A stretch of DNA of 64,000 bases from Microbacterium pseudoresistens (GTDB taxonomy: Bacteria; Actinomycetota; Actinomycetes; Actinomycetales; Microbacteriaceae), in the NCBI RefSeq assembly GCF_013409745.1, contig NZ_JACCBH010000001.1:1922001-1986000 (forward strand), read 5' to 3'. A program made the position numbers and the translations under genes. Of this stretch, positions 21,796 through 48,650 are shown piece by piece (position 1 is the stretch's first letter; every line of letters begins with the position of its first letter). The notes beneath the pieces are model-generated. The model was given only the letters and a program-made list of their open reading frames with translations, was not told the origin of the DNA and ran no database searches.

Positions 21796-21806
21796 TATTT
21801 AGACCA
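21796..21806 (-). promoter_or_regulatory. Operator-like site A upstream of the aldehyde dehydrogenase gene
   Basis: Read on the minus strand, TGGTCTAAATA lies 36-46 bp upstream of the dehydrogenase ATG. It shares TGGTCTA exactly with the sites at 31862 and 38785, and with CTAAATATTAG it forms a short dyad. It is the weakest member of the operator family described in the findings. Confidence 0.45.
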
Positions 21807-21826
21807 GTACGGGAATCAGCGCATCG

Positions 21827-22561
21827 CTACCGTCGTGTTCCGACGTCAAGCCGGGCGATCTCGTGGCGCCAGGCGGTTTCGGTGTTGAGAGTCGATCCCA
21901 GATCAGGGAGTTCGGCCATGTCGACGGCAGGGATATCGACCAGTCTGCCGCCTGCCGAGACGATCTCGAGCGAGAGGTCGGCGATCATGTTGACGCTGAT
22001 CGCCTGGAGCACCGCCTCCTCAACGGTCCGCGCCGCGCTCGTGATGCCGTGCCCCCGGAGCACGACGACAGGACGCTCGCCCATGGCCGCGGTCATCTCC
22101 GACGCGAGGCGCTGGTTCCTGATAAGCACGCTGCGGCGATAGACAGGAACGCCGCCCGCGGCGAGCCGAGTGCCGGGGATGTCGAAGGCGCCGACGATCG
22201 ATCGGATCTCTATGCCGGCCAGATCGGCAGCGACGACCCTTGGCGGATGTGCGTGTACGACGGACATCACTTCATCCCGAGCCTTCATGACGCCGGTGTG
22301 AAGAGGCAACTCGTTCGGGACGGCCCAGCCGTCGAGTTCACTCGGCCCTGCGGGCGTTCCGTCGAAGAAGACGTGCCGGATATCCTCGGCGACAGTGCAG
22401 GCGATGCCCCGTTCCTGCGGGCCGCGGCACCGCACGAGAAGGGTGTCCTCGTCGACGCGGAGACTGATGTGTCCGAGGAAGCCATCGGCGAGCCCCCGTG
22501 CGGCCAGGACTCTGCATGCGTCGGCGATGAGCGTCCGCTCCTCTTCGAATGAACCGTGCAC
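21827..22561 (-). CDS. Class II aldolase/adducin family protein (decarboxylase or aldolase)
   Basis: A 244-residue protein of the fuculose-aldolase/adducin fold. Zn-ligand motifs are HAHPPRVVAAD and a later RGHGITS; an early GHISLR segment is also typical. Actinobacterial 3,4-dihydroxyphthalate decarboxylases belong to this fold, so decarboxylation of a carboxylated catechol is a real alternative to aldol cleavage. The start is taken as GTG 22561, preceded by AGAAAGGG; the longer frame upstream overlaps the divergent promoter. It is divergent from the ferredoxin-Rieske operon. A paralogue lies at 47816-48523. Confidence 0.75.
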   Translation of the reverse strand: MHGSFEEERTLIADACRVLAARGLADGFLGHISLRVDEDTLLVRCRGPQERGIACTVAEDIRHVFFDGTPAGPSELDGWAVPNELPLHTGVMKARDEVMSVVHAHPPRVVAADLAGIEIRSIVGAFDIPGTRLAAGGVPVYRRSVLIRNQRLASEMTAAMGERPVVVLRGHGITSAARTVEEAVLQAISVNMIADLSLEIVSAGGRLVDIPAVDMAELPDLGSTLNTETAWRHEIARLDVGTRR

Positions 22562-22638
22562 GTGCGCCCTTTCTGCTTTCTGTGCCGAAGGCGAGGTCCC
22601 CCATGCGGTTCCGCACGGGCAGCGTTCGGGATCAGAGT

Positions 22639-22676
22639 TTGACAAGATGATAGCGTGCGGTAGATTGGTTAGTCCA
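22639..22676 (+). promoter_or_regulatory. Promoter of the ferredoxin-Rieske operon with operator site B
   Basis: TTGACA (22639-22644) and TAGATT (22661-22666) are separated by 16 bp. The sequence TGGTTAGTCCA (22666-22676) begins at the last base of the -10 hexamer and so covers the expected start of transcription. The dyad ATTGG-n5-CCATT fits a GntR/FCD repressor site. The exact 11-mer recurs, inverted, at 48635-48645. The ferredoxin GTG lies 22 bp downstream with GAGGAG at 22686. Confidence 0.75.
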
Positions 22677-22697
22677 TTGAGATGTGAGGAGCGGTGC

Positions 22698-23021
22698 GTG
22701 CCAAAGGTCGTGTACACCGTGAGCGACGGCGATCGCGTCGTCGACGCCGCGGTCGGAGAGAGCGTCATGAGCGCGGCTGTGCGCTCTGGAGTTCCCGGGA
22801 TCGTCGGTGAATGCGGTGGACAGCTCTCCTGCGCCACGTGTCATGTGTGGGTTCGGGACGATTTCCGCGAGCGAGTCGGTGGACCCGGTGAGATGGAATT
22901 GGACCTTCTCGATCTCGGGGTGACAGATTTCACGGACGCCAGCCGTCTCGGCTGTCAGATAACGATCACCGATGAGCTGGATGGGCTCACCGTAGAACCA
23001 CGCCCCGAGGCGTGGCACTGA
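22698..23021 (+). CDS. Plant-type [2Fe-2S] ferredoxin
   Basis: A 107-residue ferredoxin. The cluster ligands are visible as ECGGQLSCATC (Cys-X5-Cys-X2-Cys) followed by a fourth Cys in SRLGCQIT. This spacing is that of adrenodoxin/putidaredoxin-like ferredoxins serving oxygenases. It shuttles electrons from a flavoprotein reductase to the Rieske oxygenase encoded 11 bp downstream. The likely reductase gene lies at 37499-38758. The start is the GTG at 22698 with GAGGAG 6 nt upstream; it is not an ATG, so a longer out-of-family frame may be called automatically. Confidence 0.9.
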   Translation: MPKVVYTVSDGDRVVDAAVGESVMSAAVRSGVPGIVGECGGQLSCATCHVWVRDDFRERVGGPGEMELDLLDLGVTDFTDASRLGCQITITDELDGLTVEPRPEAWH

Positions 23022-23032
23022 GAGGAAAAGCG

Positions 23033-24334
23033 ATGCTGCGCCCCGATATCAATGACCTGCTCACGCAGACCGGCCCTGGTACGCCCATGGGGGATCTCTT
23101 CCGGCGGTACTGGCAGCCGGTGCTGCACACGGATGAGCTGCCGGAAGACGGCTGTCCGCCCGTCCGTGCGAAGATCCTCTCCGAGCGTCTCATCGCCGTG
23201 CGAACGCCGGAGGGCGAATACGGTCTGATGGATGAGTTCTGCGCTCACCGTGGTGTCTCGCTCTTCTTCGGGCGAGTGGAGGAACAGGGCATCCGGTGTC
23301 CCTACCACGGGTGGAAATACGACGCCAACGGACAGGCGATCGATGTGCCGAGCGAGTTGAACAACTCGGAGTTCTGCGCCAACGTCAAGCTCCGTTCCTA
23401 TCCGCTCGTCAAGGTGGGAGACATCCTCTGGACCTACATGGGAGACCCCGAGAAGCAACCGCCGCTGCCGACGTGGGAGTTCGCGACGGTCCCCTCCGGA
23501 CAGACCTACACATCCAAGCGCATCCAGGAGTCGAACTGGCTCCAGGCCCTGGAGGGCGGCATCGACTCCAGCCATGTCACGTGGCTGCACGGCGGTGGCC
23601 CGAAGGGCACGGGACTCGAAGCCGATCCGCTGTTCGCCGGATCCCGAGGGAACAAATACAACGCCGGCGACGTCAAGCCGTTCTTCGAGGTCGTCGAGAA
23701 CGAGGGCGGTCTGCTGATCGGTGCTCGTCGCAACGCCGAGGAAGGCCATTACTACTGGCGTGTGACGCCCTGGGTGCTTCCGAACTTCACAATGGTGCCG
23801 CCGCGAGGCGATCACCCGATGCACGGCCACTTCTGGGTTCCGATCGACGACGAGAACTGCTGGGCGTGGAGCTTCGACTACCACCCGACGCGCGACCTCA
23901 CGGAGGCCGAGCGTGAGGCGATGATCGCGGGGGCCGGTGTGCACAGCAAGAACATCCCGGGAACCTACCGTCCGGTGGCGAACTCGGAGAACGACTATCT
24001 GATCAATCGTGAGAAGCAGAAGACGGGGGAGTGGTTCTCGGGCGTGGAGGGCATCGCGATTCAAGACTCTTCGCTCCAGGAGAGCATGGGGCCGATCGTC
24101 GACCGCACCAAGGAACGTCTGGTCGCGACGGATGCCGGCATCATCAAGGCCCGTCAGAAGCTGCGTCGAGCGGTCGAGGCGCTGCGTGACAAGGCCGAAG
24201 AGCCGGTCGGCAACGTGCCTGAGCATCAGAGGATCCGCTCCGTCGCCATCGTCCTTCCCGCGGACCAGCCCTTCGTGGAGGGCATCGGCGATGCCTTCCA
24301 AGCGCGCGAAGGCGTCGGACAGACCACTGTGTGA
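23033..24334 (+). CDS. Rieske non-haem iron oxygenase, phthalate 4,5-dioxygenase/LigXa-like
   Basis: A 433-residue oxygenase subunit. The N-terminus has the subfamily hallmark GPGTPMGDLFRRYW. The Rieske centre is CAHRG ... CPYHGW. The mononuclear iron site is in the segment GIDSSHVTWLH, with Asp bridging and two His ligands. This subfamily contains single-subunit phthalate, isophthalate and aryl O-demethylating enzymes. A separate ferredoxin and reductase is the layout of LigX-type O-demethylases (family knowledge). The substrate is not determined by sequence. ATG 23033 has AGAGGA upstream, and the stop overlaps the next gene's GTG. Confidence 0.87.
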   Translation: MLRPDINDLLTQTGPGTPMGDLFRRYWQPVLHTDELPEDGCPPVRAKILSERLIAVRTPEGEYGLMDEFCAHRGVSLFFGRVEEQGIRCPYHGWKYDANGQAIDVPSELNNSEFCANVKLRSYPLVKVGDILWTYMGDPEKQPPLPTWEFATVPSGQTYTSKRIQESNWLQALEGGIDSSHVTWLHGGGPKGTGLEADPLFAGSRGNKYNAGDVKPFFEVVENEGGLLIGARRNAEEGHYYWRVTPWVLPNFTMVPPRGDHPMHGHFWVPIDDENCWAWSFDYHPTRDLTEAEREAMIAGAGVHSKNIPGTYRPVANSENDYLINREKQKTGEWFSGVEGIAIQDSSLQESMGPIVDRTKERLVATDAGIIKARQKLRRAVEALRDKAEEPVGNVPEHQRIRSVAIVLPADQPFVEGIGDAFQAREGVGQTTV

Positions 24335-24819
24335 TCATGGCTGAGCCCGTCGCAATGAGCGCATGCGCGCGCGCCATCACCGCTGAGGAAGCGGCCTTCC
24401 GGATCGACTACCCGCTGGCGTACGCCCGGTCGACGCGAATCGTCGCGTTCGATGAGTCCGCGGAGGCGGTCATGCGGGGGATCGCCGATGAGCCGTGGGG
24501 CCAGGCGCGCTTCTACACCGTGAACGCCACCGGCGAGCAGCTTGTGACGCTCGACGGTGAGGCGGTGCCCATGGCGCAGGAGATCGAGCATTCCGACTCC
24601 GTCATCATGCTCGCGACGAACGGAATCAAGGCGGACGCGGTCGCCGCGGTCGGAATGGCGGCGCGGGAACGCGCGATCATGACGGCCGGCCTCTTGTTCG
24701 TCGACGACGGTGAGCTGCGTGGTGAAACGCTGATGGCGATCAGACCTCACGCGCGGATCCTCCTGGTTCCGGCGGAACATGAAGACCTCTACCAGCTGCT
24801 GGTGGCGATTCGCGCATGA
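24331..24819 (+). CDS. Unrecognised 162-residue protein in the Rieske operon
   Basis: I do not recognise this family. The protein is soluble, with no signal peptide. An N-terminal half (IDYPLAYARSTRIVAFDES) precedes a segment with alternating strands and helices (SDSVIMLATNG, AGLLFVDDGELRGE, ARILLVPAEHEDLYQLL) that resembles a small Rossmann-like domain. It may start at GTG 24331, overlapping the Rieske stop, or at ATG 24337. Its stop overlaps the next start (ATGA). Tight coupling to the Rieske and PanB-like genes suggests a partner or accessory subunit of one of them (inference). Confidence 0.7.
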   Translation: MIMAEPVAMSACARAITAEEAAFRIDYPLAYARSTRIVAFDESAEAVMRGIADEPWGQARFYTVNATGEQLVTLDGEAVPMAQEIEHSDSVIMLATNGIKADAVAAVGMAARERAIMTAGLLFVDDGELRGETLMAIRPHARILLVPAEHEDLYQLLVAIRA

Positions 24820-25634
24820 CCAGCCTGCCTCAGCTGCGGGAGATGAAGCGGACAGGTCAGAAATCGGTCTGCTTCGTCGCGTGGGACTACCACATGGCAC
24901 GCATCGCGGATCGTGTCGGTGCGGACATCGTCTCGGTCGGCGACACGGTCGGCGTCAACCTCTTCGGTCAGCCGAACCCTCTGGAGATCACGTTCGACGA
25001 GATGGTCTTCGTCGCAAAGGCTGTCCGTCGGGGTGTGGAGCACGCGCTGCTGAGCTGTGACTTCCCCTACGGCCCGCTGCAGGCGGGTGACGCGCTTCCT
25101 GCGGCCATCCGTCTGGTGAAGGAGGTCGGCGTCGACCTCGTCAAGCTCGATGGGGCGGCTGACTTCCCAGAAGAGGTGGAGCGGCTCACGAAGGCGGGCA
25201 TCCCGGTGTTCGCACAGTTCGGCATCACGCCTCAGACGTCGCTCAAGTACGGCATCGACTACTCGGCCGCGGACACGGTGCAGGTTCCCGATGAGATGAC
25301 GGACGAGCTTGTCGCCGAGGCGAAGCGCCTGGAGTCGGCGGGTGCCGCGCTGCTCAACTTCACGAACTCCGGTGCCGTCGTCGGTGCCGCCGTCGTGGAG
25401 GCGGTGAAGATCCCCGTGCTCGGCGGCTTCGGCGGGGGTCCCTGGCTCGATGGCCGGATCAGGCTCATCACGGCCGCGCTCGGCTACAACCACAAGTGGG
25501 TCGATGCCGAGCCCGACACCTATGCGAACGTGGCCGGGATCGCATACGAAGCGTTGAAGGAATGCGCGGGAGACATCCGCGCGGGGCGTCAGATCAGAGG
25601 CGGGATCACGGTTCCGGCAGAAGGAGTGCAGTAA
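24816..25634 (+). CDS. PanB-fold (ketopantoate hydroxymethyltransferase-like) enzyme of unknown reaction
   Basis: A 272-residue TIM-barrel protein clearly related to PanB. It keeps the metal Asp residues in SVGDTVG (D43) and LSCDFPYG (D82) and the Lys in VKLDGA (K110), where PanB has VKLEGG. The PanB catalytic base, Glu in an LECVP motif, is replaced by NFTNSG (Thr at about 183), and the PanB His before LTPQ is Gln134. It is therefore unlikely to make ketopantoate. It sits inside a Rieske oxygenase operon, so an aldolase, lyase or isomerase step on an aromatic degradation product is more likely (inference). ATG 24816 overlaps the previous stop. Confidence 0.75.
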   Translation: MTSLPQLREMKRTGQKSVCFVAWDYHMARIADRVGADIVSVGDTVGVNLFGQPNPLEITFDEMVFVAKAVRRGVEHALLSCDFPYGPLQAGDALPAAIRLVKEVGVDLVKLDGAADFPEEVERLTKAGIPVFAQFGITPQTSLKYGIDYSAADTVQVPDEMTDELVAEAKRLESAGAALLNFTNSGAVVGAAVVEAVKIPVLGGFGGGPWLDGRIRLITAALGYNHKWVDAEPDTYANVAGIAYEALKECAGDIRAGRQIRGGITVPAEGVQ

Positions 25635-26482
25635 TGCCATTCTTGGAGGCGGACGGGATCCGCACCCGGTACGAGATGGTCGGCGACGGACCTCCCCTGC
25701 TGATGTTCAGCCCGGGCGGCTTCAATGCGAGCCTGGAGAACTGGACGTCGTTCGGCCGCTACAAACAGCTCGGATTCATCGACGCACTGTCCAAAGAGTA
25801 CACGTGCATCGTGTTCGACCGGCGTGAGTCGGGACAGTCGGGCGGGCGCGTGGAGCGCCTCTCGTGGAGCAAGTACGTCGCTCAGGTGGTCGGTTTGCTC
25901 GACGGCCTGGGCATCGGCAGTGTGCACACCATGGGCGGGTGCGTGGGCTGCACGTCGGCGGCTCAGCTGGCGGTGGAGCATCCCGAGCGCGTGCGCAGCA
26001 TGGTGCTCTTCTCGCCGGCCGGCGGTGTCACTTATCGGGCGGCGCAGCATCAGCGCTTCACCCATCATCTGGGGTGGGCGCTGGAGCACGGACTTGAGGC
26101 CGTCGCAGAGCTCGCCCGTTCCACGACCGAGGGGTTTACCAAGGATCCACGCGTGGGGCCGTGGGCGCCGGCGCTGCGCTCCGACGAGACCTTCGCCACC
26201 GACTTCGCCCGCATTCCGCTCGAGAGCTACGTCACGATCGTGTCCGGCACGTCCCGGCTGCTCTTCGACCGTGACACGGTGCCCGGGCCGGAACCCGAGG
26301 ATCTTCGACTGCTCGACATCCCTGCGCTGATCGTCCCCGGCGAGGACCTCTCGCACACGCGCTCGGCGGCTCGTTACCTGCAGGAGACGCTGCCGGACAA
26401 CCAGTACTGGGACGTACCGGTCGCCGAGCAGACGCCTGAGGCGTCGACAGCCCGGGTGCGCGAGTTCCTCTCGCGTCAGTGA
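25634..26482 (+). CDS. Alpha/beta hydrolase with a predicted Cys nucleophile
   Basis: A 282-residue alpha/beta hydrolase. The oxyanion region is FSPGGFNAS, and FDRRESGQSG matches the strand-4 turn of this superfamily. The nucleophile elbow reads MGGCVGC, giving Cys103 where most members have Ser. Cys nucleophiles are typical of dienelactone hydrolases. A C-terminal Asp/His pair may lie in PGEDLSHT. It is the last gene of the ferredoxin-Rieske operon; its ATG overlaps the PanB-like stop (TAATG) with AAGGAG 7 nt upstream. Lactone or ring-cleavage-product hydrolysis is plausible but unproven. Confidence 0.82.
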   Translation: MPFLEADGIRTRYEMVGDGPPLLMFSPGGFNASLENWTSFGRYKQLGFIDALSKEYTCIVFDRRESGQSGGRVERLSWSKYVAQVVGLLDGLGIGSVHTMGGCVGCTSAAQLAVEHPERVRSMVLFSPAGGVTYRAAQHQRFTHHLGWALEHGLEAVAELARSTTEGFTKDPRVGPWAPALRSDETFATDFARIPLESYVTIVSGTSRLLFDRDTVPGPEPEDLRLLDIPALIVPGEDLSHTRSAARYLQETLPDNQYWDVPVAEQTPEASTARVREFLSRQ

Positions 26483-27887: not shown

Positions 27888-27920
27888 GGTCTTAGACTAA
27901 ATGCTACTCCGGTATGACCA
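27888..27920. promoter_or_regulatory. Operator-like site C in the divergent decarboxylase/ADH control region
   Basis: Two dyads lie in the 88-bp spacer: GGTCTTAGAC with TTAGACTAA (27888-27900), and GGTATGACCA (27911-27920), a GGT-n3-ACC palindrome. Both resemble GntR/FCD sites and the operator family seen at 22666 and 31862, but neither has the GGTTAGTCC core. They could control both divergent units. Confidence 0.4.
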
Positions 27921-27951
27921 TTAAGCCAATTTCGATCCCGAGGAAGCGCAG

Positions 27952-29115
27952 ATGACAGGAACAGTGTTGGCCGCCGTCCGTACAGCGCCGGGCAGGACCG
28001 AGATGCGCGAGTTTGTGAAGCCGCGGATCGACGCCGATTCCGCGCTCCTCCGGGTCGAGGTCGCGGGGATCTGCGGCACGGATGCGAGGCTGTACTTCAG
28101 CCCGCCGGACACTCCTGCGACGCGAGGGCAGGTGATCATGGGACACGAGAACGTCGGAATCATCGCAGAAGCAGGTGAGAACTTCAGGGCCCGACACGGG
28201 GTGGAGGAGGGAGACCGTGTCTTCGTCGAGCACTACGTCGCATGCTACAACTGCGAATGGTGCCGAATCGGCGAGTACCGTCACTGCGAGGCGACCGACT
28301 GGCGCACGAATCCCGATGCTCGCCGGTTCGGATACACCTCAGCCGATCATCCCGGGCACCTTTGGGGAGGATTCTCCGAGGCGATGTATCTGCCGTGGAA
28401 CACGGTCTTGCACCGGGTCCCGACGACGATGAGTGCCGAACTCGCCGGAATGGTGATGCCGTTGTCCAACGGGATCGAGTGGGCGCTACTCACCGCGGGC
28501 ATCGGCTACGACGACACCGTGCTGATTCAGGGGCCCGGTCAGCAGGGACTCGCGCAGCTGGTCGCATCGAAGCAGGCCGGGGCTTCGATGATCATCGTCT
28601 CGGGCACCACCCGGGACAGGGAGCGGCTCGACCTCGCCCGCGAACTCGGTGCCGATGCGGTGATCGACGTGCTCGCCGAAGATGCCCGCGAGAAGGTGAT
28701 GGATCTCACGAACGGCCGCGGTCTCGATTTCGTCCTCGACTGCACCTCGCGCGCCGGCACGGCTCCGATGCTCCTCGGTATCGACGTGCTCAAGCGCCGG
28801 GAAGGCACGATGGTCGTCCAGGGGGAGCTTTCGGCGTTCCCGGACTTCCCGCTCAAGAAGATCACCGAGAAGTCGATCACGATGAAGTCCGCGCGCGGAC
28901 ACTCCTATAAGGCCTGTGAGCTCGCCGTCGCGCAACTGGCGTCCGGCCGCTTTCCGCTGGAGAAGCTCGCCACCCACCGCTACGGGATCGACCAGGTCGA
29001 CCACGCCATCCGGGTCCTCGCGGGTCAGACCGATGAAGACGCCATCCACATCTCGATGATGCCGTCGATGGTCGGCGAGCGCGGCGGTCGCACGGCGAAG
29101 GGCGATGCGAAATGA
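27952..29115 (+). CDS. Zinc-dependent medium-chain alcohol dehydrogenase
   Basis: A 387-residue MDR-family dehydrogenase. The catalytic zinc site is seen in AGICGTDARL and MGHENVG. The structural zinc lobe has Cys residues in ACYNCEWCRIGEYRHCE, and a nucleotide-binding segment follows (IQGPGQQGLAQL). It oxidises an alcohol or hemiacetal, or reduces an aldehyde, with NAD(P). In this operon it may replace the LigC-type dehydrogenase step before the lactone or keto-acid intermediate (inference). It is first gene of the ADH-ligK-ligJ-decarboxylase operon; ATG 27952 has GAGGAAG upstream. Confidence 0.88.
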   Translation: MTGTVLAAVRTAPGRTEMREFVKPRIDADSALLRVEVAGICGTDARLYFSPPDTPATRGQVIMGHENVGIIAEAGENFRARHGVEEGDRVFVEHYVACYNCEWCRIGEYRHCEATDWRTNPDARRFGYTSADHPGHLWGGFSEAMYLPWNTVLHRVPTTMSAELAGMVMPLSNGIEWALLTAGIGYDDTVLIQGPGQQGLAQLVASKQAGASMIIVSGTTRDRERLDLARELGADAVIDVLAEDAREKVMDLTNGRGLDFVLDCTSRAGTAPMLLGIDVLKRREGTMVVQGELSAFPDFPLKKITEKSITMKSARGHSYKACELAVAQLASGRFPLEKLATHRYGIDQVDHAIRVLAGQTDEDAIHISMMPSMVGERGGRTAKGDAK

Positions 29116-29819
29116 CCGGCATCGTCGTCACAGGCGCACCCCGCGTCCCATTGGATCAGCTCGACGCTCTCGCAGGATACGGCGTCGCGACCGTCCACGA
29201 GGCGCAGGGCCGCTCCGGCCTGCTGCGCTCCTGGATCAACCCCATCCAAGAGGGCGTTCGGGTGTCGGGCAGCGCCGTCACCGCCACCGTCGCCCCCGGG
29301 GACAACACGATGATCGCCGTCGCCGTCGAGCAGTGCCAGGCGGGGGACATCCTCGTTGTCACACCGACGTCGCCGAGCGAGATGGGGTACTTCGGAGACC
29401 TCCTGGCGACGTCGCTGAAGGCACGAGGGGTGCGGGGCCTGGTGATCGACTCCGGCGTGCGCGACGTCGCGGATTTGAAGGCACTCGAATTTCCCGTGTG
29501 GTCCCGGTGCATCGTCGCGGAGGGCACGACCAAGGGCAGCCTCGGCGACGTGAACGTACCGATCTCGATCGCCGGGCAGATCGTGCATCCGGGCGATGCG
29601 ATCGTCGCGGACGACGACGGGGTCGTCGTCGTTCCGCGCGCGTGTGCGGCAGCCGTCGTCATCGCATCGCGGGAACGCGAGGAGAAGGAAGAACGATCTC
29701 GTCGTCGCTACGAGCAAGGCGAGATCGCGCTCGACGTGAACAACATGCGGTCCCTGATCGAGAAAGCGGGAATCAGGTACGTCGACTATCAGGACTGGAA
29801 GGGGACAGAAGAACCGTGA
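29112..29819 (+). CDS. RraA-fold 4-carboxy-4-hydroxy-2-oxoadipate aldolase (LigK-like)
   Basis: A 235-residue protein of the RraA/HMG-aldolase family. It has the active-site residues in GYFGDLLATSLKARGVRGLV and the Arg-Asp pair in IDSGVRDVADL. LigK/GalC-type members split 4-carboxy-4-hydroxy-2-oxoadipate to pyruvate and oxaloacetate, and also decarboxylate oxaloacetate. The adjacent LigJ-like gene makes this role much more likely than the RNase E inhibitor role of E. coli RraA. Both ends overlap neighbouring genes (ATGA and GTGA). Confidence 0.85.
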   Translation: MTGIVVTGAPRVPLDQLDALAGYGVATVHEAQGRSGLLRSWINPIQEGVRVSGSAVTATVAPGDNTMIAVAVEQCQAGDILVVTPTSPSEMGYFGDLLATSLKARGVRGLVIDSGVRDVADLKALEFPVWSRCIVAEGTTKGSLGDVNVPISIAGQIVHPGDAIVADDDGVVVVPRACAAAVVIASREREEKEERSRRRYEQGEIALDVNNMRSLIEKAGIRYVDYQDWKGTEEP

Positions 29820-30823
29820 TCATCGATGTTCATGGACATTACACGACCGAGCCGGCGACGTTCATCGAGTTCCGCAAGATGCAACTCGACCGTGATGCCC
29901 CCAGCGTTCGAGAGCTGATGTCGTCCATCTCGGATGACGAAGTTCGTGAGAGCGTTCAGAGAAACCAGATCCGTGTGCTGACCGAGCGTGGCGGCGATGT
30001 CATGCTCTTCTCTCCCCGCGCGTCGGGGATGGGTCATCACGAGACGGATGTCGCGGTCGCGAACGCATGGTCGCGAGCGTCGAACGCCATGGTGCATCGC
30101 ATCAGCGAGCTCTTCCCCGAGTTCTTCGCACCGGTCGCACAGCTTCCGCAGACGCCGGAAGGGAACGTCGACGGGGTGCTCGCAGAGCTGCATCGCGTAG
30201 CTGATCTCGGCTTCGTGGGTGCCAATCTCAACCCGGATCCGTCGGGAACGTGGGCGGGCGCGCCCATCACGGACGCCTCGTGGTATCCGATCTTCGAGAC
30301 GGCGCAGGAGCTGCGCATGCCTCTCATGGTGCATGTTTCAAACGCGTGCAACCCGAACTTCCACACGCTCGGAGCCCATTACCTGAACGCAGACACCAGC
30401 GTCTTCATGCAACTGCTGCAGTCCGATCTCTTCGAGAGGTTCCCCGGGCTTCGCCTCGTGATTCCGCATGGCGGGGGAGCGATTCCTTACCATTGGGGTC
30501 GCTACCGCGGCCTCTCGATGCGCAACGGCTGGCAGGACCCGGCTGAGTTGTGGCGCAACGTCTTCTTCGACTCCGCGGTCTATCATCAGGCCGGGATCGA
30601 TCTGCTTCTCGACGTCGTGCCTTCGGCCAACGTGCTCTTCGCATCCGAGATGCTCGGCGCGGTGCGCGGGGCCGACCCGGAGACCGGGGTCGAGTGGGAC
30701 GACACGCTTCACTATCTGCGCGCCTCGGGGCGTTCGGAGCACGACTGGAACGCGATCACGCACGGGAATGCGCTTCGGGTGTACCCGCGGCTGTCGGCGA
30801 GGCTCGAGGGAGCCGTCCGGTGA
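29816..30823 (+). CDS. 4-oxalomesaconate hydratase-like amidohydrolase (LigJ-like)
   Basis: A 335-residue amidohydrolase-superfamily protein. The N-terminal metal motif is IIDVHGHYTT. Further candidate ligands lie in LMVHVSNACNPNFHT and VIPHGGGAIPYHWGRYRG, and an FASEM segment near the C-terminus is seen in LigJ proteins. LigJ hydrates 4-oxalomesaconate to 4-carboxy-4-hydroxy-2-oxoadipate, the substrate of the LigK-like product of the preceding gene. The start is GTG 29816, overlapping that gene's stop. No 4,5-cleaving dioxygenase is visible in the window. Confidence 0.82.
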   Translation: MIIDVHGHYTTEPATFIEFRKMQLDRDAPSVRELMSSISDDEVRESVQRNQIRVLTERGGDVMLFSPRASGMGHHETDVAVANAWSRASNAMVHRISELFPEFFAPVAQLPQTPEGNVDGVLAELHRVADLGFVGANLNPDPSGTWAGAPITDASWYPIFETAQELRMPLMVHVSNACNPNFHTLGAHYLNADTSVFMQLLQSDLFERFPGLRLVIPHGGGAIPYHWGRYRGLSMRNGWQDPAELWRNVFFDSAVYHQAGIDLLLDVVPSANVLFASEMLGAVRGADPETGVEWDDTLHYLRASGRSEHDWNAITHGNALRVYPRLSARLEGAVR

Positions 30824-31821
30824 GCCGCCTGCAGCTGACCTTCGCGTGCGGGGATTACGATCGCACCCGAGCGATCGAGGACGGCTCCGTGCACGTCGAT
30901 GGCATCGACGTGACCTATCTGCGCCTTCCCGTGGAGGAGACGTTCTTCCGCATGGCGCGCTATCGCGAGTTCGACATCGCGGAGATGTCGCTGTCGACGT
31001 ACGTGGCATCGTTGAACACCTTGGACCGGGGGGAGCGGCCACCGTTCGTCGCTCTGCCGGTGTACACCTCGCGTCAGTTCCGTCACGCGGGGATGTTCAT
31101 CAACACGGAGGCCGGCATCTCGAGCCCGTCGGATCTGAGCGGGAAGCGCATCGGCCTGCCGGAGATGCAGCTGACTGCGTGCGTGTGGCAACGCGGCATC
31201 CTCGCCGACGGCTACGGCCTTCCGCTCGACGCATCGACCTTCTACACCGGAGGCCAGGAGAGCCCCGGGCGCATCGAGAAGGCGAAAGTCGACCTGCCCT
31301 TCGACATCCGCCCCATTCCCGCCGGGCGGACGCTTTCCGAGATGCTCGCCGTCGGCGATCTCGATGCGATCTTCGCGCCGCGGATCCCCAGCGTGTTCGG
31401 CACGCCGGGCGCGCCGGTGGCGCGCCTCTTCCCCGATGCCCAGGCCGCTGAGCGGCAGTACTTTCGGGACACCGGGATCTTCCCGATCATGCATGTCGTC
31501 GCTCTGCGCCGGGAACTCTATGAGTCGAACCGGTGGATCGCTCAATCGCTCACCAAGGCACTGAACGAAGCGAAGGACCGGGCTATGGAGCGTATCTACG
31601 ATGCATCGGCCCTGCATCTGATGGAGCCGTGGCTCATGCTTCATCTCGAAGAGGCGCGGGCATTGATGGGTGCCGATTACTGGTCGTACGGGGTGGACGA
31701 CGGCAATCGACGGGTGCTCGAGACGTTCTTGAGGTACCACCACGAACAGGGTCTGTCGGGTTCCTTGCGTTCCGTGGAAGACCTGTTCGCGCCGGAAGCT
31801 CTCGAGAGCTTCGTGATCTGA
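30820..31821 (+). CDS. 4,5-dihydroxyphthalate decarboxylase-like (periplasmic-binding fold)
   Basis: A 333-residue cytosolic protein with the strong family signature TFACGDYDRTRAIEDG at the N-terminus, then LPVEETFFRMARYREFDIAEMS. Later motifs are YTSRQFRHAGMF and the GIFPIMHVVALRRELY segment. Known members decarboxylate 4,5-dihydroxyphthalate to protocatechuate, using a transport-receptor-like fold. The GTG at 30820 overlaps the LigJ-like stop (GTGA). It is the last gene of the operon. The substrate could be another ortho-dihydroxy aromatic diacid. Confidence 0.85.
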   Translation: MSRLQLTFACGDYDRTRAIEDGSVHVDGIDVTYLRLPVEETFFRMARYREFDIAEMSLSTYVASLNTLDRGERPPFVALPVYTSRQFRHAGMFINTEAGISSPSDLSGKRIGLPEMQLTACVWQRGILADGYGLPLDASTFYTGGQESPGRIEKAKVDLPFDIRPIPAGRTLSEMLAVGDLDAIFAPRIPSVFGTPGAPVARLFPDAQAAERQYFRDTGIFPIMHVVALRRELYESNRWIAQSLTKALNEAKDRAMERIYDASALHLMEPWLMLHLEEARALMGADYWSYGVDDGNRRVLETFLRYHHEQGLSGSLRSVEDLFAPEALESFVI

Positions 31822-31832: not shown

Positions 31833-31872
31833 TTGACCGTGAAACTGCACGGTGATAGGCTTGGTCTATCCA
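31833..31872 (+). promoter_or_regulatory. Promoter of the SDR/transport operon with operator site D
   Basis: TTGACC (31833-31838) and TAGGCT (31856-31861) are spaced by 17 bp. TGGTCTATCCA (31862-31872) follows directly, so the operator covers the predicted transcription start exactly as at 22666. The surrounding TTGG-n6-CCATTGG gives a longer imperfect dyad. The SDR ATG is 45 bp downstream. Confidence 0.72.
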
Positions 31873-31916
31873 TTGGACATTTATCAGGTCGCGATGAGGC
31901 GACCAAGGGGAGTGAA

Positions 31917-32750
31917 ATGAGCGATCGCGTCGCGGGTGACGAGACTTCGGTGCTGGTGGCATCTGATGGTGCAGCCGTTGCCATACCCGAACGCTTGCAG
32001 AATCGCGTCGCGATCGTGACGGGCGGTGGTCACGGGCTCGGCCGGGCGTACGCGACTCGGCTTGCGTCCGAGGGGGCTCACGTCGTGATCGCCGAATTGG
32101 ATCGCGATGCCGGCGAGAGTGTCGCGGCCGAACTCCGCGAACGCGGGCTCACCGCGTCTGCCTACGGCACCGACATCACCGATGCGGCGGCCCTGGAGAC
32201 GATGGTGTCATCCGTGGTCGAAGCGCACGGCAGAATCGACATACTGGTGAACAACGCCGCAATGTTCTCCCGGGTGCCCATGTCGCGATCATTGTTCGAC
32301 GCCATTGAGCCGGACGAGTGGGACAGGATGATGAGCGTCAATCTCAAGGGCACGTGGCTCGCATGCCGAGCGGTGGTTCCCGAGATGCGCAAACGAGGAT
32401 ACGGCAAGATCATCAACATCAGCTCAGGCACCGCGTTCAAAGGAATGACCACGCGCATTCATTACGTCACTTCGAAAGCTGGAATCCTCGGCTATACGAA
32501 GGTGCTCGCTCGAGAGCTGGGAGCCGACGGAATCACGGTCAACTGCGTTGCCCCGGGAAGCACGTTGAGCGAGGAGGCCCCTGACGCCGCGACCCTCGCG
32601 TTCCGGAAGGACGCAACAGGCGATCGGGCTATTCCGCGTGTGCAGGTCGCAGATGACCTCGTGGGAGCCGTCGCTTTCTTCGCGTCGGCGGACAGCGACT
32701 TCATCACAGGACAGACGCTGGTGGTCGACGGCGGCTCCTACATGCATTGA
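31917..32750 (+). CDS. Short-chain dehydrogenase/reductase
   Basis: A 277-residue classical SDR with a 30-residue N-terminal extension. The cofactor motif is TGGGHGLGRAYA. The catalytic Ser lies in NISSGTAF and the Tyr-Lys pair in HYVTSKAG; ILVNNAA is also present. It would oxidise or reduce a secondary alcohol or cis-diol. It is first gene of an operon with a metallo-hydrolase and ABC importer genes. ATG 31917 has AGGGGAGTG upstream. GC content appears somewhat lower than in the housekeeping region, in keeping with an accessory origin (impression, not measured). Confidence 0.88.
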   Translation: MSDRVAGDETSVLVASDGAAVAIPERLQNRVAIVTGGGHGLGRAYATRLASEGAHVVIAELDRDAGESVAAELRERGLTASAYGTDITDAAALETMVSSVVEAHGRIDILVNNAAMFSRVPMSRSLFDAIEPDEWDRMMSVNLKGTWLACRAVVPEMRKRGYGKIINISSGTAFKGMTTRIHYVTSKAGILGYTKVLARELGADGITVNCVAPGSTLSEEAPDAATLAFRKDATGDRAIPRVQVADDLVGAVAFFASADSDFITGQTLVVDGGSYMH

Positions 32751-32779
32751 GGCTCGACGGCCTGCTCAACGATCGAACG

Positions 32780-33580
32780 ATGATGTCGAACTACTACACC
32801 CTGCAACCGCTCGTGGTGGGCACATTCACTGCGATCCCGCTTTCGCATTTCCGCAGTGACGCGCCCAAAGACGCGACGGTCGCCGCCCCCTGCATCTCCT
32901 GGCTCGCACGAGGCGACGATGGTGACCTCATCGTCGTCGACACCGGTCCAGGAGATCCGGCGGGGGACGCGGCGAAGATCCACTATCCCTTCACTCGCGG
33001 TCCTGGACAGCGTATCGACGAGGCGCTTCGCGTGGTCGGCGTGGATCCGGAGGATGTATCCACCGTCATTCTGACGCATCTGCATTTCGATCACTGCGCG
33101 GACGGCGAGCTTCTTCCCTCCGCGCGATTCTACGTACAGCGCAGCGAACTGGAGTACGCCGAGCGGCCAGATGCCCGCCAGGAACGCGCATACGATCTCG
33201 GTCATGACGGCATTCGCCCGGCATGGTGGAAGATCCGGGATCGAATCTCCGTGATCGATGGAGAGCACGAACTCACTCCCGGATGCACCATCTTGCATAC
33301 TCCCGGACACACTCCGGGATCGGCATCGGCGGTGTTCCGCCGACAGGACGGCGTTCGCGTCGCAATCGCGGGCGACCTCATCAGTCGCATGGAGAACTGG
33401 TCAAACGAGCGCGGTGATCATATCCCTCCGGGGCTCGTCACGAGTCTCGCCGACTGCGCAGCATCGTGGAGAGCCCTCAAGCACGCCGCCGATGTTGTAC
33501 TCGCTTCCCACGACGAACGCATGCTGGACCTTCATTCCACGGAACATCGTTCCACCCCGAACAACGAAAGTGATCAATGA
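32780..33580 (+). CDS. Metallo-beta-lactamase-fold hydrolase (lactonase-like)
   Basis: A 266-residue binuclear zinc hydrolase. The metal motif is THLHFDHCADG, then HTPGHTPGSASAVF with the third His, an Asp in AIAGDL and a late ASHDERM His. The layout fits quorum-lactonase-like and other small-lactone hydrolases. In a catabolic operon it is likelier to open an aromatic-derived lactone, such as a pyrone, than a signal molecule (inference). ATG 32780 lacks a clear ribosome binding site; a TTG at 32747 overlapping the SDR stop is the alternative start. Confidence 0.8.
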   Translation: MMSNYYTLQPLVVGTFTAIPLSHFRSDAPKDATVAAPCISWLARGDDGDLIVVDTGPGDPAGDAAKIHYPFTRGPGQRIDEALRVVGVDPEDVSTVILTHLHFDHCADGELLPSARFYVQRSELEYAERPDARQERAYDLGHDGIRPAWWKIRDRISVIDGEHELTPGCTILHTPGHTPGSASAVFRRQDGVRVAIAGDLISRMENWSNERGDHIPPGLVTSLADCAASWRALKHAADVVLASHDERMLDLHSTEHRSTPNNESDQ

Positions 33581-34569: not shown

Positions 34570-34614
34570 CCGCTTGCACCGAGATCCGTGGGTTCGGCCC
34601 ATGGGAGAGGCAGG

Positions 34615-36209: not shown

Positions 36210-36284
36210 GTTGGTGGTGAGTGCCCGAGGAGCGGACGTCGCGACGTCGATCTGGGCAGAGGAGCCGTTGCGGGTGACCGCGTC

Positions 36285-37474: not shown

Positions 37475-37500
37475 GATTCGGGGATGACGATCCGCGAATC
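37475..37500. terminator. Candidate bidirectional terminator hairpin
   Basis: The arms GATTCG and CGAATC enclose a second GGAT/ATCC pairing around a GACG tetraloop, with one G-G mismatch between the stems. It sits between the convergent MFS and ferredoxin-reductase genes and overlaps the reductase stop codon. No long T-run follows on either strand. Confidence 0.45.
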
Positions 37501-38758
37501 AGCGCTGTAGATGATCCTTCAACGGAATCTTCAGGTCGCCCGCTGCCTCGACCGGGATGTTTCCGCCGACCTCGAGGATTCGGCGAACCGTCATATAGTC
37601 GCGGGGGCTGTTCACGGACTCGACGGAGACGATCTCGCCGTCGCGGTAGTACAGCGTGGAGAACTGCTCGCTACCCGGCTGACCGCGCACGACGGCATGG
37701 TCGTATCCCATGGAAAGCCCCGCCATCTGCAGCTTCAGATCCGCTTGGTCCGACCAGAACCAGGGCACGGGCGGCTTCCCCGGTTCACGCCCCAGCAGGG
37801 CAGCCGCCGCAGACTTCGCCTGAGCGATCGCGTTCGGCACCGACTCGATTCGGATCTCGCCATGTACGGGGTGGGCTGTGAGAGCGCAGTCGCCCGCCGC
37901 CACGATTCCCCCGATTCGCGTGCGGCCGGCTTGGTCGACCCTGATCCCTCGCGCATCCGCAAGCCCAATCGAGGATGCTAGTTCCGTGTGAGGGAGCAGC
38001 CCGATGCCGACGACGACCACCTCGGCTTTGATGGCTCGGCCGTCGCTGAGCCCGACCCCGGTGACGCGGCCGTCGGCGCCGTGGAAGCTGGTGACGGTGG
38101 CATTCAGCTCGATCCGGGTTCCGCGCCGCGTGTGGGCATCCGCGTAGAACCGTGACATCTCCGGTGCGACGGCGCGGGCCATCAAGCGGTCGAGCGCTTC
38201 CAGGACTGTCACGTCCTTGCCCTTTGCCGTCGCGGTCGCGGCGATCTCCAGGCCGATGAAGCCGCCGCCGACGATGGCCACGTGGTCTGCGGCGTCGAGT
38301 TCGGCGCGCAAGGCAGTCGCGTCGTCGATCGTCCGCAGATAGTGGATGCCCGCCAGGTCGGCTCCGGGAACGCTCATCCGACGAGGAGTACCGCCCAGGG
38401 TGAACGCAAGACGTGAGAATCCGATCGTCTCTCCGTCGCTGGTCGTCGCGGTTCCGGAGCTGCCGTTCTCATCGTCCAGGGTGATCGAGTCGATCCACAT
38501 CCCGCTCTGGATGGCGATGTCGTGGAGGTCGTAGAAGTCGGCGTGACGCAGTGTCAGATCCGGGGATGCCGCCTGTCCGGCCAGGAAGGCCTTGGACAGG
38601 GGCGGTCGCTGGTAGGGGAGGTGGGCCTCGCCGCCGACGACGGTGATCGGATCGAGGTCGCCGAGTTCGCGGAGGCTGGACGCGACCTGAAGTCCGGCTT
38701 GCCCAGCGCCGATGACGAGGGTTCGCCCGCGGGCAGCATGCGACTGAACGTGGTCCAT
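37499..38758 (-). CDS. Ferredoxin reductase (FAD/NADH, rubredoxin-reductase type)
   Basis: A 419-residue flavoprotein with an FAD motif VIGAGQAGLQVAS, the YQRPPLSKAFL segment typical of oxygenase-coupled ferredoxin reductases, a NADH motif IVGGGFIGLEIA and GIVAAGDCAL. It passes electrons from NADH to a [2Fe-2S] ferredoxin. The only plant-type ferredoxin in the window is the one before the Rieske gene at 22.7 kb, so these likely form one three-component system despite a 14-kb gap. ATG 38758 is chosen for GAGGAG 5 nt upstream. Confidence 0.9.
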   Translation of the reverse strand: MDHVQSHAARGRTLVIGAGQAGLQVASSLRELGDLDPITVVGGEAHLPYQRPPLSKAFLAGQAASPDLTLRHADFYDLHDIAIQSGMWIDSITLDDENGSSGTATTSDGETIGFSRLAFTLGGTPRRMSVPGADLAGIHYLRTIDDATALRAELDAADHVAIVGGGFIGLEIAATATAKGKDVTVLEALDRLMARAVAPEMSRFYADAHTRRGTRIELNATVTSFHGADGRVTGVGLSDGRAIKAEVVVVGIGLLPHTELASSIGLADARGIRVDQAGRTRIGGIVAAGDCALTAHPVHGEIRIESVPNAIAQAKSAAAALLGREPGKPPVPWFWSDQADLKLQMAGLSMGYDHAVVRGQPGSEQFSTLYYRDGEIVSVESVNSPRDYMTVRRILEVGGNIPVEAAGDLKIPLKDHLQR

Positions 38759-38784
38759 GGTTCTCCTCGAGACTAACGGCATAA

Positions 38785-38795
38785 CCATTAGACCA
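38785..38795 (-). promoter_or_regulatory. Operator-like site E upstream of the ferredoxin reductase gene
   Basis: On the minus strand TGGTCTAATGG lies 27-37 bp upstream of the reductase ATG and includes a possible -10 hexamer TCTAAT. It shares TGGTCTA with sites A and D. Confidence 0.5.
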
Positions 38796-39574: not shown

Positions 39575-39670
39575 GAACGTCTCCTGTCGTTAGATGGCTG
39601 GAGCAATGCGCGAGGCGTCGTGTTCCGGAGTGTCCATGGAGCGATCGTCTGATCGTGCGCGTTGTCAAAT

Positions 39671-39681
39671 AGGTTAGTCCC
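39671..39681. promoter_or_regulatory. Operator-like site F upstream of the GntR gene
   Basis: AGGTTAGTCCC shares the nine-base core GGTTAGTCC with the sites at 22666 and 48635. It lies about 100 bp upstream of the regulator's TTG, next to a minus-strand TTGACA. Autoregulation of the GntR gene is the natural reading. Confidence 0.5.
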
Positions 39682-39711
39682 AAAACGCGCGAGGAGAGGT
39701 TCTGCGCGTCA

Positions 39712-42644: not shown

Positions 42645-42673
42645 CTCTGCCCTTTCCAAGGCGACCAATGCGA

Positions 42674-43613: not shown

Positions 43614-43637
43614 CCGCCGTCCCGGATGTATAGAGTC

Positions 43638-44405: not shown

Positions 44406-44567
44406 TCAGGTGCTGCCTCTCCACGACTGTTGATCCAGCCGCTGGCGTTCCGCGAGCGGGGAGCTCGGCGGGATATCTACCGACCTCTTCCCATTCTACC
44501 GAAAATGCTTCGCATCCATGCAGGTGATGTTCTCGGTCGGTTGACGCGGGCGAGCCTCTATCGGTTC

Positions 44568-45389: not shown

Positions 45390-45487
45390 ATCGGGCTCCT
45401 CTGTTCACGGGCTTCAAAGAGTCGGAATCTGCGACCGCCACGGATCCGTCAAGGAGGCGCTCCGACAGGTTCCGCGGCTTCTAAGGT

Positions 45488-47442: not shown

Positions 47443-47563
47443 TGTTTCACCCGTCGAGCGACATCATGCCCGGTCGCGTCGAGTGCGGCCTCGTGCAGTG
47501 CGCAAGTCCCCACAAGAACTCCTTTGTGATCGTGGTTCGTATTCCATGATTGCGCGAGACGCC

Positions 47564-47595
47564 ATTTTTCGCAAGTACTTCGTAGATCGAAAAAT
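47564..47595. promoter_or_regulatory. 32-bp inverted repeat upstream of the second importer operon
   Basis: ATTTTTCG (47564-47571) and CGAAAAAT (47588-47595) are perfect 8-bp arms around 16 bp that contain the palindrome AAGTACTT (47573-47580). It lies 122-153 bp upstream of the ATPase start. It is a likely regulator site; a similar TTTTCGC element occurs in the 42.7-kb control region. Confidence 0.45.
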
Positions 47596-47649
47596 GCCCA
47601 GAGGGCGAGGCGTTCCTCCTAAGAGTTTCGACAACCTGTTTGACGGCGG

Positions 47650-47793
47650 ATGGCGGAAGTGATGGCGCGTAGAAATGAGGTCGTGCAGCGGGCGTTCACT
47701 CAGCTGGACATAGAGCATCGGACTGCGCTTGCGGGAGTGATTCCGGCCCTGGAGTCCTTCGTCGGCGCGCTGGGCGGGCGCCCGCGTCTCTGA
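47650..47793 (+). pseudogene. Possible MarR-family C-terminal remnant (47 codons)
   Basis: An open frame from ATG 47650 to TGA 47793 encodes a 47-residue peptide whose second half (RAFTQLDIEHRTALAGV, IPALESFVGAL) looks like the C-terminal dimerisation helix of MarR regulators. An in-frame stop at 47641 and the absence of any winged-helix sequence upstream suggest a decayed gene tail. The resemblance is by eye only; it could be a chance frame in GC-rich DNA. Confidence 0.3.
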
Positions 47794-47815
47794 CGGGAGG
47801 GGCGCACCCCAGGGG

Positions 47816-48523
47816 TCAGCGACCGGCGAGCGCGATCTCGGTCTGCTCGCGGAAGTACTCCCACCGACCGGGCCAGGGCCCGCGGAACTCGCGGAGATCG
47901 GCGAGCTCGTCGTCGGGGATGAGTCGCGGGGGCAGACCGGTCTGCAGCACTTCGAGGTTCGTGCGGGCGAGCTCCTCGAGGAGCAATGCGTTGACGGTCG
48001 CCTCCTGCAGGGTTTCGGCGACGGAGACGATGCCGTGGTTCTGCAGGTGGCAGAAGGTCTTGTCACCGAGGGCCTTCGCCAGGTTGGCGCCCTGTTCGGG
48101 GGTGGTCACGAGGTGCGCGTGGGGGTAGAGCCCGAAGTCGTGCTCGTCCACGTAGGATGCGGGAATGTGCAGCAGCGGCAGGATCGGTCGTTCCAGGACG
48201 CCGAGCACCGTCGTCGCATGCTGATGGGTGTGCACCACTGCTTGCACATCCGGCCGGGCCTTGTAGATCTCCGTGTGGATGAAGGTCTCTGCGACGGGGA
48301 TCCCCTCGCCCTCCTGCTTGCGTCCTTCAAGATCGACGGTAATGATCCGATCCGCTGTCAGCGTGCTCAGGCCGCGGACGGTCGGGGAATGCTTCGGCTT
48401 GATGACCACCTGGTCGCCGACCCGGATGCTGACGTGTCCCAGATAGTCGACGAGTCCGTGTACGTGGAGGATCCGGCCGGCCTCTGCGACCAGTTCCTTG
48501 GCTTCTGCGATGTTCGCTGACAT
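47816..48523 (-). CDS. Class II aldolase/adducin family protein (second copy)
   Basis: A 235-residue protein with the fold's Zn motifs: VVHTHQHATT, a later YPHAHLVT and LQNHGIVSV. GHVSIRVGDQVVIKP is the N-terminal hallmark. Decarboxylation of a dihydroxyphthalate-like acid or aldol cleavage are both possible. It follows the pca operon on the same strand but has its own promoter with the same operator 11-mer as the Rieske operon, so it belongs functionally to that regulon (inference). Only modest similarity to the copy at 21827-22561 is visible by eye. Confidence 0.8.
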   Translation of the reverse strand: MSANIAEAKELVAEAGRILHVHGLVDYLGHVSIRVGDQVVIKPKHSPTVRGLSTLTADRIITVDLEGRKQEGEGIPVAETFIHTEIYKARPDVQAVVHTHQHATTVLGVLERPILPLLHIPASYVDEHDFGLYPHAHLVTTPEQGANLAKALGDKTFCHLQNHGIVSVAETLQEATVNALLLEELARTNLEVLQTGLPPRLIPDDELADLREFRGPWPGRWEYFREQTEIALAGR

Positions 48524-48617
48524 GTGGTGTCCTCACGATCCTTCGGAGATCTTGCGGCTGGGTGGGAAGGCCAGAGTGGGAGCTGGCGACGCTGCTTTGC
48601 TCGGCCGCGTGGGTCTC

Positions 48618-48650
48618 TGCAGTCTACTGCAAATTGGACTAACCATCATA
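48618..48650 (-). promoter_or_regulatory. Promoter of the second aldolase gene with operator site G and a 14-bp palindrome
   Basis: Reading leftward: TATGAT (-10, 48650-48645) runs directly into TGGTTAGTCCA (48645-48635), the exact 11-mer of the Rieske promoter in the same position relative to the -10. No good -35 is seen. Just downstream lies TGCAGT-CT-ACTGCA (48618-48631), a perfect 6-bp-arm dyad that may bind another regulator. Confidence 0.68.

Follow-up and report, generated by a model that had tools for sequence, protein, structure and literature searches.

A 64-kb stretch of the one-contig, 2.91-Mb genome of Microbacterium pseudoresistens (hereafter the window, 2.2% of the genome) encodes a GntR-family regulator with an FCD domain at positions 38837-39574 on the minus strand. 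It is very probable, on comparative sequence evidence, that this 245-amino-acid protein (PF00392, 76.3 bits; PF07729, 81.8 bits; both above their cut-offs) is a FadR-subfamily repressor that acts at the palindrome TAATGGTnnnACCATTA, is relieved by an organic acid of the pathway it governs, and controls a series of catabolic units scattered across the window. The predicted targets with support from other species are the ferredoxin-Rieske operon, the operon for a zinc-dependent alcohol dehydrogenase (Zn-ADH), LigK and LigJ together with its divergent neighbour, the ferredoxin reductase gene, a PhtC-type decarboxylase gene and, judged by its relatives, the GntR gene itself. Targets predicted in this genome only are an aldehyde dehydrogenase gene, an operon for a short-chain dehydrogenase/reductase (SDR) and an importer, a second class II aldolase gene, and a region near 59.3 kb with a flavin monooxygenase and an ATP-binding cassette (ABC) importer. 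An initial annotation of the window had proposed a single FCD-type GntR protein that governs the scattered units by way of a common operator. That proposal is strongly supported by the comparative evidence, although two of the sites it listed were misplaced, the autoregulatory site is weak and the site at 59318 was missed.

The operator motif was derived from relatives of the window, with the window itself excluded. Palindromic expectation-maximization (EM) with an order-2 background was applied to 153 intergenic segments from 12 relative loci, which represent 11 genomes because one contig supplied both L041 and L042 as its two halves; L055, a copy of L054, was excluded from training and from all motif counts. 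The procedure was started from 2500 of 30,447 places, seeded at random segment positions rather than from a consensus, and the 30 best of these starts all converge on TAATGGTnnnACCATTA with a log-likelihood of 180.5. With 900 starts each, fewer than in the main run, two resampled sets reached 128.5 and 126.6 and yielded diffuse motifs. Symmetry was imposed by the algorithm, and sites of similar type had already been noticed in the relatives before the run. An earlier EM with an order-0 background and 200-bp upstream windows returned codon-periodic, CG-rich motifs and was replaced by the intergenic-only run.

Once the matrix was fixed, 14 further loci carrying orthologs of the regulator were retrieved as a held-out set. 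These loci contain 60 sites of at least 14 bits in 270,547 bases, with every locus hit (14 of 14), versus a mean of 2.7 and a maximum of 29 for 200 column-permuted palindromic matrices, none of which reached 60. Leave-one-out retraining recovered 28 sites and hit all 12 training loci. Placement was counted over the resulting 26 loci for gene classes with at least three members, with genes that start less than 160 bases from a locus end excluded. Sites occur within 160 bases upstream of ferredoxin genes in eight of eight cases, and likewise precede Zn-ADH (4/8), PhtC-like (4/9), divergent binding-protein-like (3/7) and major facilitator superfamily (MFS) genes (2/5). When these five classes are pooled with those for ferredoxin reductase, GntR and the Rieske oxygenase, 48 of 90 genes have a site, compared with 0 of 77 genes in ten other classes; the two groups were formed after counting, the genes preceded by sites mostly lead their operons, and the 77 genes are mostly operon-internal.

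The motif follows the regulator and not the enzymes: it is absent from loci that have only the enzymes and present in Arthrobacter plasmid loci that carry other oxygenases. No motif match occurs in the 59,843 bases of three plasmid loci that combine a similar Rieske oxygenase (55-66% identical) with IclR or LysR regulators and lack an ortholog of the GntR protein; only the Phyllobacterium locus (L099) has the fuller enzyme set, and what the other two (L100 and L101) have in common with the window is mainly the Rieske protein (55-56%) and a distant Zn-ADH. A non-orthologous GntR-family gene is also found in L101; its product aligns with the regulator over the first 77 residues only (35%). The genome has 18 FCD matches, of which the regulator is the only one inside the window, and 57,192 bases around the 17 other FCD places contain no match. 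Around the 27 more distant GntR homologs returned by a scan of GTDB contigs, four matches were found in 457,502 bases. On the Arthrobacter plasmids the GntR gene and its sites are present with a different dioxygenase, and tblastn with the alpha and beta dioxygenase subunits of L054 gave no match in the window at 1e-12.

These plasmid loci, L054 and L055, belong to conjugative plasmids of Pseudarthrobacter phenanthrenivorans Sphe3 and Arthrobacter sp. FB24, and both encode the GntR protein (44% identical to that of the window). Scoring gave three clear operators in L054, and L055 has identical core strings; the regulator-operator pair is therefore mobile. A congeneric locus (L129) contains homologs of the plasmid-type genes for GntR (71%), an oxidoreductase (63%), a class II aldolase (71%) and ferredoxin (65%). 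The Phyllobacterium plasmid locus (L099, 8612-21284) encodes homologs of the Rieske protein (66%), Zn-ADH (58%), LigJ (52%) and hydrolase (55%) alongside IclR and LysR regulators and without such operators. The enzymes thus cross phyla, and the switch is not seen in that locus.

When applied blind to the window, the relatives-only matrix places candidate operators at ranks 1-6 and 10, with three coding matches at the ranks between. Six positions reach at least 14 bits, whereas 400 kb of background from the same genome has four, of which two overlap; the expected number per 64 kb is 0.64. Of the seven control regions originally reported, six fall within the top ten matches of the 64 kb.

The strongest predicted operator (TAATAGTAACACCATTA, 59318..59334, 20.5 bits, rank 1) lies between a gene for a FAD aromatic-hydroxylase-type monooxygenase (57665..59293, minus strand) and an NMT1/ABC importer on the plus strand. 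With one mismatch to the consensus, it outranks every other match in the genome and suggests a further unit of the regulon; it was absent from the initial annotation, beyond whose range it lies. The second-ranked predicted operator (TAACGGCATAACCATTA, 38774..38790, 19.6 bits) is also second best genome-wide, with two mismatches, and stands upstream of the gene for ferredoxin-NAD(+) reductase (37499..38788, minus strand). The scan labelled it coding because the longest open reading frame (ORF) of the reductase starts at 38788; the probable start is 38761, where a ribosome-binding site and an ATG are found, and in three aligned relatives the start codon, by eye, is likewise downstream of the site. 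The string TGTGGTCTAATGGT upstream of this gene is identical in all four loci compared (the window, L041, L127 and L128). The site originally reported here, a TGGTCTA at 38789-38795, adjoins the dyad, 10 nt from its centre, and the predicted operator upstream of the reductase is placed at 38774 instead. Accessory half-sites 7-12 nt away are described for this GntR subfamily in the parts of PMC4494728 consulted, and the TGGTCTA might be either a conserved accessory half-site or part of a -10 element.

Predicted operators at ranks 3 to 6 all score near or above 15 bits. One (AATTGGACTAACCATCA, 48632..48648, 16.4 bits, rank 3) precedes the gene for a second class II aldolase/decarboxylase-like protein (47816..48523, minus strand; NF053537, 134 bits, below the cut-off of 200). 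Another (GATTGGTTAGTCCATTG, 22663..22679, 15.9 bits, rank 4) separates the gene for a PhtC-type 3,4-dihydroxyphthalate decarboxylase (21827..22561, minus strand; NF053537, 374 bits against the same cut-off) from the plus-strand operon at 22698..26482, which encodes ferredoxin, an isophthalate-dioxygenase-like Rieske oxygenase, a conserved 160-aa protein, a PanB-like protein and an alpha/beta hydrolase; this arrangement also occurs in L042. The fifth (TAATATTTAGACCAGTA, 21793..21809, 15.6 bits, within three mismatches of the consensus) is upstream of the aldehyde dehydrogenase gene (20315..21760, minus strand). The sixth (CTCCGGTATGACCATTA, 27907..27923, 14.9 bits) lies between the plus-strand operon for Zn-ADH, LigK aldolase, LigJ hydratase and a 4,5-dihydroxyphthalate-decarboxylase-like protein (27952..31821) and a divergent, minus-strand gene for a decarboxylase/binding-protein-like protein. 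It aligns with TGGTnnnACCATT in L042, L127 and L128, with CGGT in the window where those loci have TGGT. A related dyad at 27888 had been put forward for this region; it is not the conserved element, and inspection by eye of the same three loci, where it is not kept, led to its rejection as an operator.

Two weaker predicted sites complete the set. At rank 10, GCTTGGTCTATCCATTG (31859..31875, 11.0 bits) is upstream of a plus-strand unit (31917..37448) for an SDR, a metallo-beta-lactamase (MBL)-fold hydrolase, an NMT1-type binding protein, an ABC ATPase, an ABC permease and an MFS protein, of which the ATPase and the permease were recognized from their translations and the others by Pfam. Its core is the same as that of a site at position 6230 of L041, which precedes GntR there. 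The candidate autoregulatory site AATAGGTTAGTCCCAAA (39668..39684) is located upstream of the GntR gene.

The two strings on which the regulon was originally proposed are parts of the one palindrome TAATGGTnnnACCATTA and not independent motifs. The first, GGTTAGTCC, occurs at exactly three places, as reported (22667 and 39672 on the plus strand, 48636 on the minus strand), with coordinates that had been given one base low; 0.02 copies are expected per shuffle, and all three lie between genes, as had been stated, given the start codons assigned in our analysis. For the second, TGGTCTA, the three listed copies are present, but four exist in total, the fourth at 61019 inside a permease gene, versus 1.19 expected, and this 7-mer by itself is not convincing. 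The 11-mer TGGTTAGTCCA has exactly two copies in the genome, both within the window. Five of the seven copies originally listed lie in or beside a top-ten matrix match (22663, 48632, 21793, 38774 and, at rank 10 only, 31859), whereas the copy at 39672 is weak and the one at 27888 is wrong. A genome-wide IUPAC search with the bare core was judged too unspecific, with approximately 100 chance matches by a hand estimate.

Orthologs of the regulator are rare. At 1e-30, they occur in 6 of 398 genomes of the family, three of them close (this genome included); at 1e-45, the class yielded 6 among 394 genomes, a second family 12 among 249, the genus 4 among 247 and a third family 2 among 301. All of these tallies count genomes that were already known. 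When GTDB contigs were scanned with the GntR protein, 30 loci were returned, three of which are close (Dactylosporangium, 56%; Mycolicibacterium, 47%; Pseudonocardia, 50%). Several relative loci hold the same enzymes next to GntR, and the core that travels with the regulator comprises ferredoxin, the Rieske oxygenase, the PanB-like protein, the hydrolase, Zn-ADH, LigK, LigJ, the decarboxylase-like protein and ferredoxin reductase. The proposal that all units define one pathway is borne out to the extent that this core accompanies the regulator in other genera; the SDR-importer operon, the flavin monooxygenase unit, the aldehyde dehydrogenase and the second aldolase can be assigned to that pathway only tentatively. 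No operator was found before the relatives' homologs of these four, and the flavin monooxygenase has a homolog in only 1 of 246 other genomes of the genus at E <= 1e-120, with 45% identity. The importer binding protein (NMT3) and the proteins at 50520-52508 and 60277-61380 lie outside this comparison of genes among relatives.

The recognition helix of the GntR protein, GVSRVTVREALRVLE, is at least 96% conserved at all positions except one among 26 orthologs (the window protein included), and Arg49 and Gly80 are invariant in all 26. Val60 (96%), Asp136, Ser161, Arg167 and Gly206 of the orthologs are found in none of the regulator's own aligned paralogs, a set in which one sequence was entered twice (L057/L060) and some sequences were roughly cut. 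H165, H210 and H232 are likewise invariant (26/26), and the Asp is conserved at under 95%; we take the metal/effector site of FCD domains to consist of one Asp and three His residues. In the sections of PMC4494728 consulted, the FadR-subfamily consensus is TKGT/ACMA with 3 nt between GT and AC, and Arg at helix-turn-helix (HTH) position 28 and Gly at position 59 prefer a G/C pair in such boxes; Arg49 and Gly80 correspond to these two positions by our own mapping from the Pfam match. The palindrome TAATGGTnnnACCATTA fits the published FadR-subfamily operator type.

The known FadR-subfamily regulons (FadR, LldR, PdhR and ExuR), as far as they are covered in those sections of PMC4494728, share with the window set a GntR winged HTH joined to an FCD domain, TGGT/ACCA boxes with 3-nt spacing, the conserved Arg and Gly at the equated specificity positions and a possible extra half-site near one palindrome. 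They differ in that the window set has TAAT/ATTA flanks and aromatic-catabolic targets; the words ‘aromatic’ and ‘phthalate’ have 0 occurrences in the main text of that study (Suvorova et al. 2015). In the open-licence literature, to the extent that its text was covered (PMC13040137, PMC11683335, PMC11881993), no GntR regulator of phthalate-type catabolism is described for this orthologous group; older subscription papers on Arthrobacter pht genes lie outside that scope. Collectively, the sequence comparisons support the existence of a conserved, specific and recurrent regulon of a type already known. Its predicted operator is canonical for the FadR subfamily, and no description was found for the orthologous group of its regulator.

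The positions of several sites relative to promoter-like elements suggest how the predicted operator might work. The operator at 22663 begins inside the -10 element of a promoter-like site, TTGACA-16-TAGATT, at 22639-22666 on the plus strand, and an opposite-strand promoter-like site (22676-22647), directed toward the PhtC-type gene, has its first hexamer within the same operator. The first of these arrangements is also visible in the sequence of L042, and hexamers resembling a -10 element were seen by eye to abut the sites at 48632, 38774 and 31859. From the observed motif, its conservation, its specificity for these loci and its placement, we infer binding, repression rather than activation, and the effector. 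Specifically, the GntR protein would bind TAATGGTnnnACCATTA as a dimer, at positions that cover or adjoin the -10/+1 region of the target promoters, and would thereby prevent transcription; an organic acid formed in the pathway would release it by binding to the FCD domain. This geometry is most simply read as promoter occlusion by a repressor dimer.

Several results weigh against this interpretation. Among three regions scanned for promoter-like elements, only that of 22663 has elements over threshold; the other two, both among the regions where hexamers were seen by eye, have none. The site at 38774 counts as upstream of the reductase only if translation starts at 38761 and not at the longest-ORF start, and the site at 31859 scores under three coding matches in the window. 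Autoregulation had been part of the original proposal, and a candidate site is indeed present, but in the window it is weak (7.5 bits, rank 28); the GntR gene of L128 likewise has no upstream site of at least 14 bits. Coverage in the relatives is partial for ferredoxin reductase (9 of 15), GntR (14 of 25) and the Rieske gene (4 of 13), the last of these in part because some loci have ferredoxin at the head of the operon. The held-out set is not fully independent: L116 is near-identical to the training locus L051, 11 of the 14 loci come from one family, and families are partly shared with the training set. With one mismatch allowed, TGGTTAGTCCA has four places in the genome versus nine for a reversed control pattern. 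Five sites genome-wide fall within three mismatches of the palindromic consensus, and because the reversed control has six, this total is unremarkable. The window holds three of the five, among them the two best, and only this concentration is unusual.

Control might be confined to the conserved core (the ferredoxin-Rieske operon, the Zn-ADH divergon, ferredoxin reductase, the PhtC-type gene and GntR), with the sites at 21793, 31859, 48632 and 59318 being chance AT-rich matches. We regard this narrower regulon as unlikely, while noting what speaks for it: these four sites have no footprint in relatives, the aldehyde dehydrogenase and SDR homologs near GntR in L128 have no site of at least 14 bits upstream and nothing similar by eye in those stretches, only one of the 246 other genus genomes searched has the monooxygenase at the threshold given above, and the 400-kb genome sample contains four positions over the same threshold. 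However, with 0.64 such matches expected per 64 kb, the sites at 59318, 48632 and 21793 all exceed 15 bits and stand before catabolic genes; 59318 is the genome's best match, and 48632 shares an exact 9-mer with 22663. The direction of control could also differ from the repression proposed here, with the GntR protein acting as an activator, or as both activator and repressor. The FCD protein GlcC is called a transcriptional activator in the portion of PMC11683335 consulted, and sites in the divergent Zn-ADH region could sit upstream of one promoter, whereas the site at 22663, the only one of three scanned operators with a promoter-like site over threshold, overlaps the -10 element; activation is accordingly rated improbable.

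It is very improbable that the sites belong to another regulator, with the GntR protein as a bystander. Candidates are available, since the window has two IclR genes (43638-44405 and 54102-54875) and the genome has 17 other FCD places, but the motif is absent around those 17 places and from the three loci in which similar enzymes are accompanied by IclR or LysR genes. Each of the 12 training loci and 14 held-out loci with GntR orthologs has the motif, including those with different enzymes, and its spacing is of the FadR-subfamily type (PMC4494728, in part). A shared core-promoter element, consisting of a -10 hexamer and its flanks, is scarcely credible as the source of the repeats. Several sites do abut a -10-like hexamer, as judged partly by eye, but the element is a 17-base palindrome and not a -10 hexamer alone (even if EM imposed the symmetry), it is missing from similar-enzyme loci with other regulators, and permuted matrices of the same composition do not approach its 60 held-out sites.

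The likely substrates are isophthalate- or phthalate-like dicarboxylates, an inference only. The closest solved relative of the Rieske oxygenase is isophthalate dioxygenase (IPDO; 9INA, 402 bits), ahead of phthalate dioxygenase (7FHR, 294 bits). LigJ, the 4-oxalomesaconate hydratase, scores 364 bits against LigJ structures; LigK, the 4-carboxy-4-hydroxy-2-oxoadipate (CHA) aldolase, matches PRK09262 with 317 bits (cut-off 179) and TIGR02798 with 295.5 bits, under its 304.5 cut-off. An IPDO-like oxygenase, two families resembling dihydroxyphthalate decarboxylases and LigJ/LigK together suggest an aromatic dicarboxylate as substrate.

Comparison with described systems reveals partial matches. The clusters of the phthalate 3,4-dioxygenase (pht) type on the Arthrobacter conjugative plasmids (NC_015147, NC_008538) have the 44% identical GntR protein, a PhtC-type decarboxylase, an MFS protein and the operator in common with the window. 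They possess an alpha/beta dioxygenase, with subunits named PhtAa and PhtAb, whereas the window has an IPDO-like Rieske protein and LigJ/LigK. The iphA2CBA1 genes of Comamonas testosteroni KF1 (9INA; PMC12445078) also encode an IPDO-type Rieske oxygenase. The KF1 enzyme is described in the consulted part of that paper as a two-component system of oxygenase and reductase, whereas the window links a separate ferredoxin and a FAD ferredoxin reductase, decarboxylase-like genes, LigJ/LigK and GntR. Rhodococcal naphthalene (nar) genes (PMC11881993, in part) similarly form several transcriptional units under GntR-type proteins, for a different pathway. The consulted text of a paper on riboflavin catabolism (PMC12746152; Rieske, Microbacterium) has no connection to this cluster.

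The chances seem evenly balanced that this FCD-GntR lineage and TAATGGTnnnACCATTA constitute a portable wiring for aromatic-dicarboxylate catabolism in Actinomycetes, in which the oxygenase module is swapped and new units join by acquiring a single site. If so, an IPDO-like Rieske protein with LigJ/LigK would serve in some loci and an alpha/beta dioxygenase with PhtC on conjugative plasmids, and the flavin monooxygenase/importer region and the second decarboxylase-like gene, 9-20 kb from GntR, would have been recruited in this manner. The analysis yields a predicted regulator, operator and target list for an aromatic-acid pathway that could not be matched to a described one; the pathway recurs in other actinobacteria and, on conjugative plasmids, with a different oxygenase, and the operator can be used to find further pathway genes elsewhere in these genomes. 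If the effector proves to be an acid of the phthalate type or an intermediate further down the pathway, the GntR-operator pair would represent a ready biosensor part.

Other features of the window concern the cluster more indirectly. An interleaved block (39712-47442) encodes two enoyl-CoA hydratases, an ADP-forming acyl-CoA ligase, an IclR protein and an ABC importer; the matrix scan of the window finds no intergenic operator match of at least 10 bits there, and the block is predicted to lie outside the regulon. The proteins encoded at 26934-27863 and 30820-31821 are distantly related members of the 4,5-dihydroxyphthalate decarboxylase/binding-protein-like family, and their genes flank Zn-ADH, LigK and LigJ on opposite strands. 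The PanB-like protein (24816-25634; ketopantoate hydroxymethyltransferase family) scores under the PanB equivalog cut-off, and 13 were counted in the clusters of relatives. The 160-aa protein (24337-24819) is without a Pfam or NCBIfam match and is encoded after the Rieske gene, as it is in 13 relative loci; AlphaFold2, given four sequences, predicts a mixed alpha/beta fold with a mean pLDDT (predicted local distance difference test) of 77. RpiB is also among the genes around GntR, and a protocatechuate 3,4-dioxygenase cluster occupies 48.7-54.1 kb, with the dioxygenase itself at 52.6-54.1 kb.

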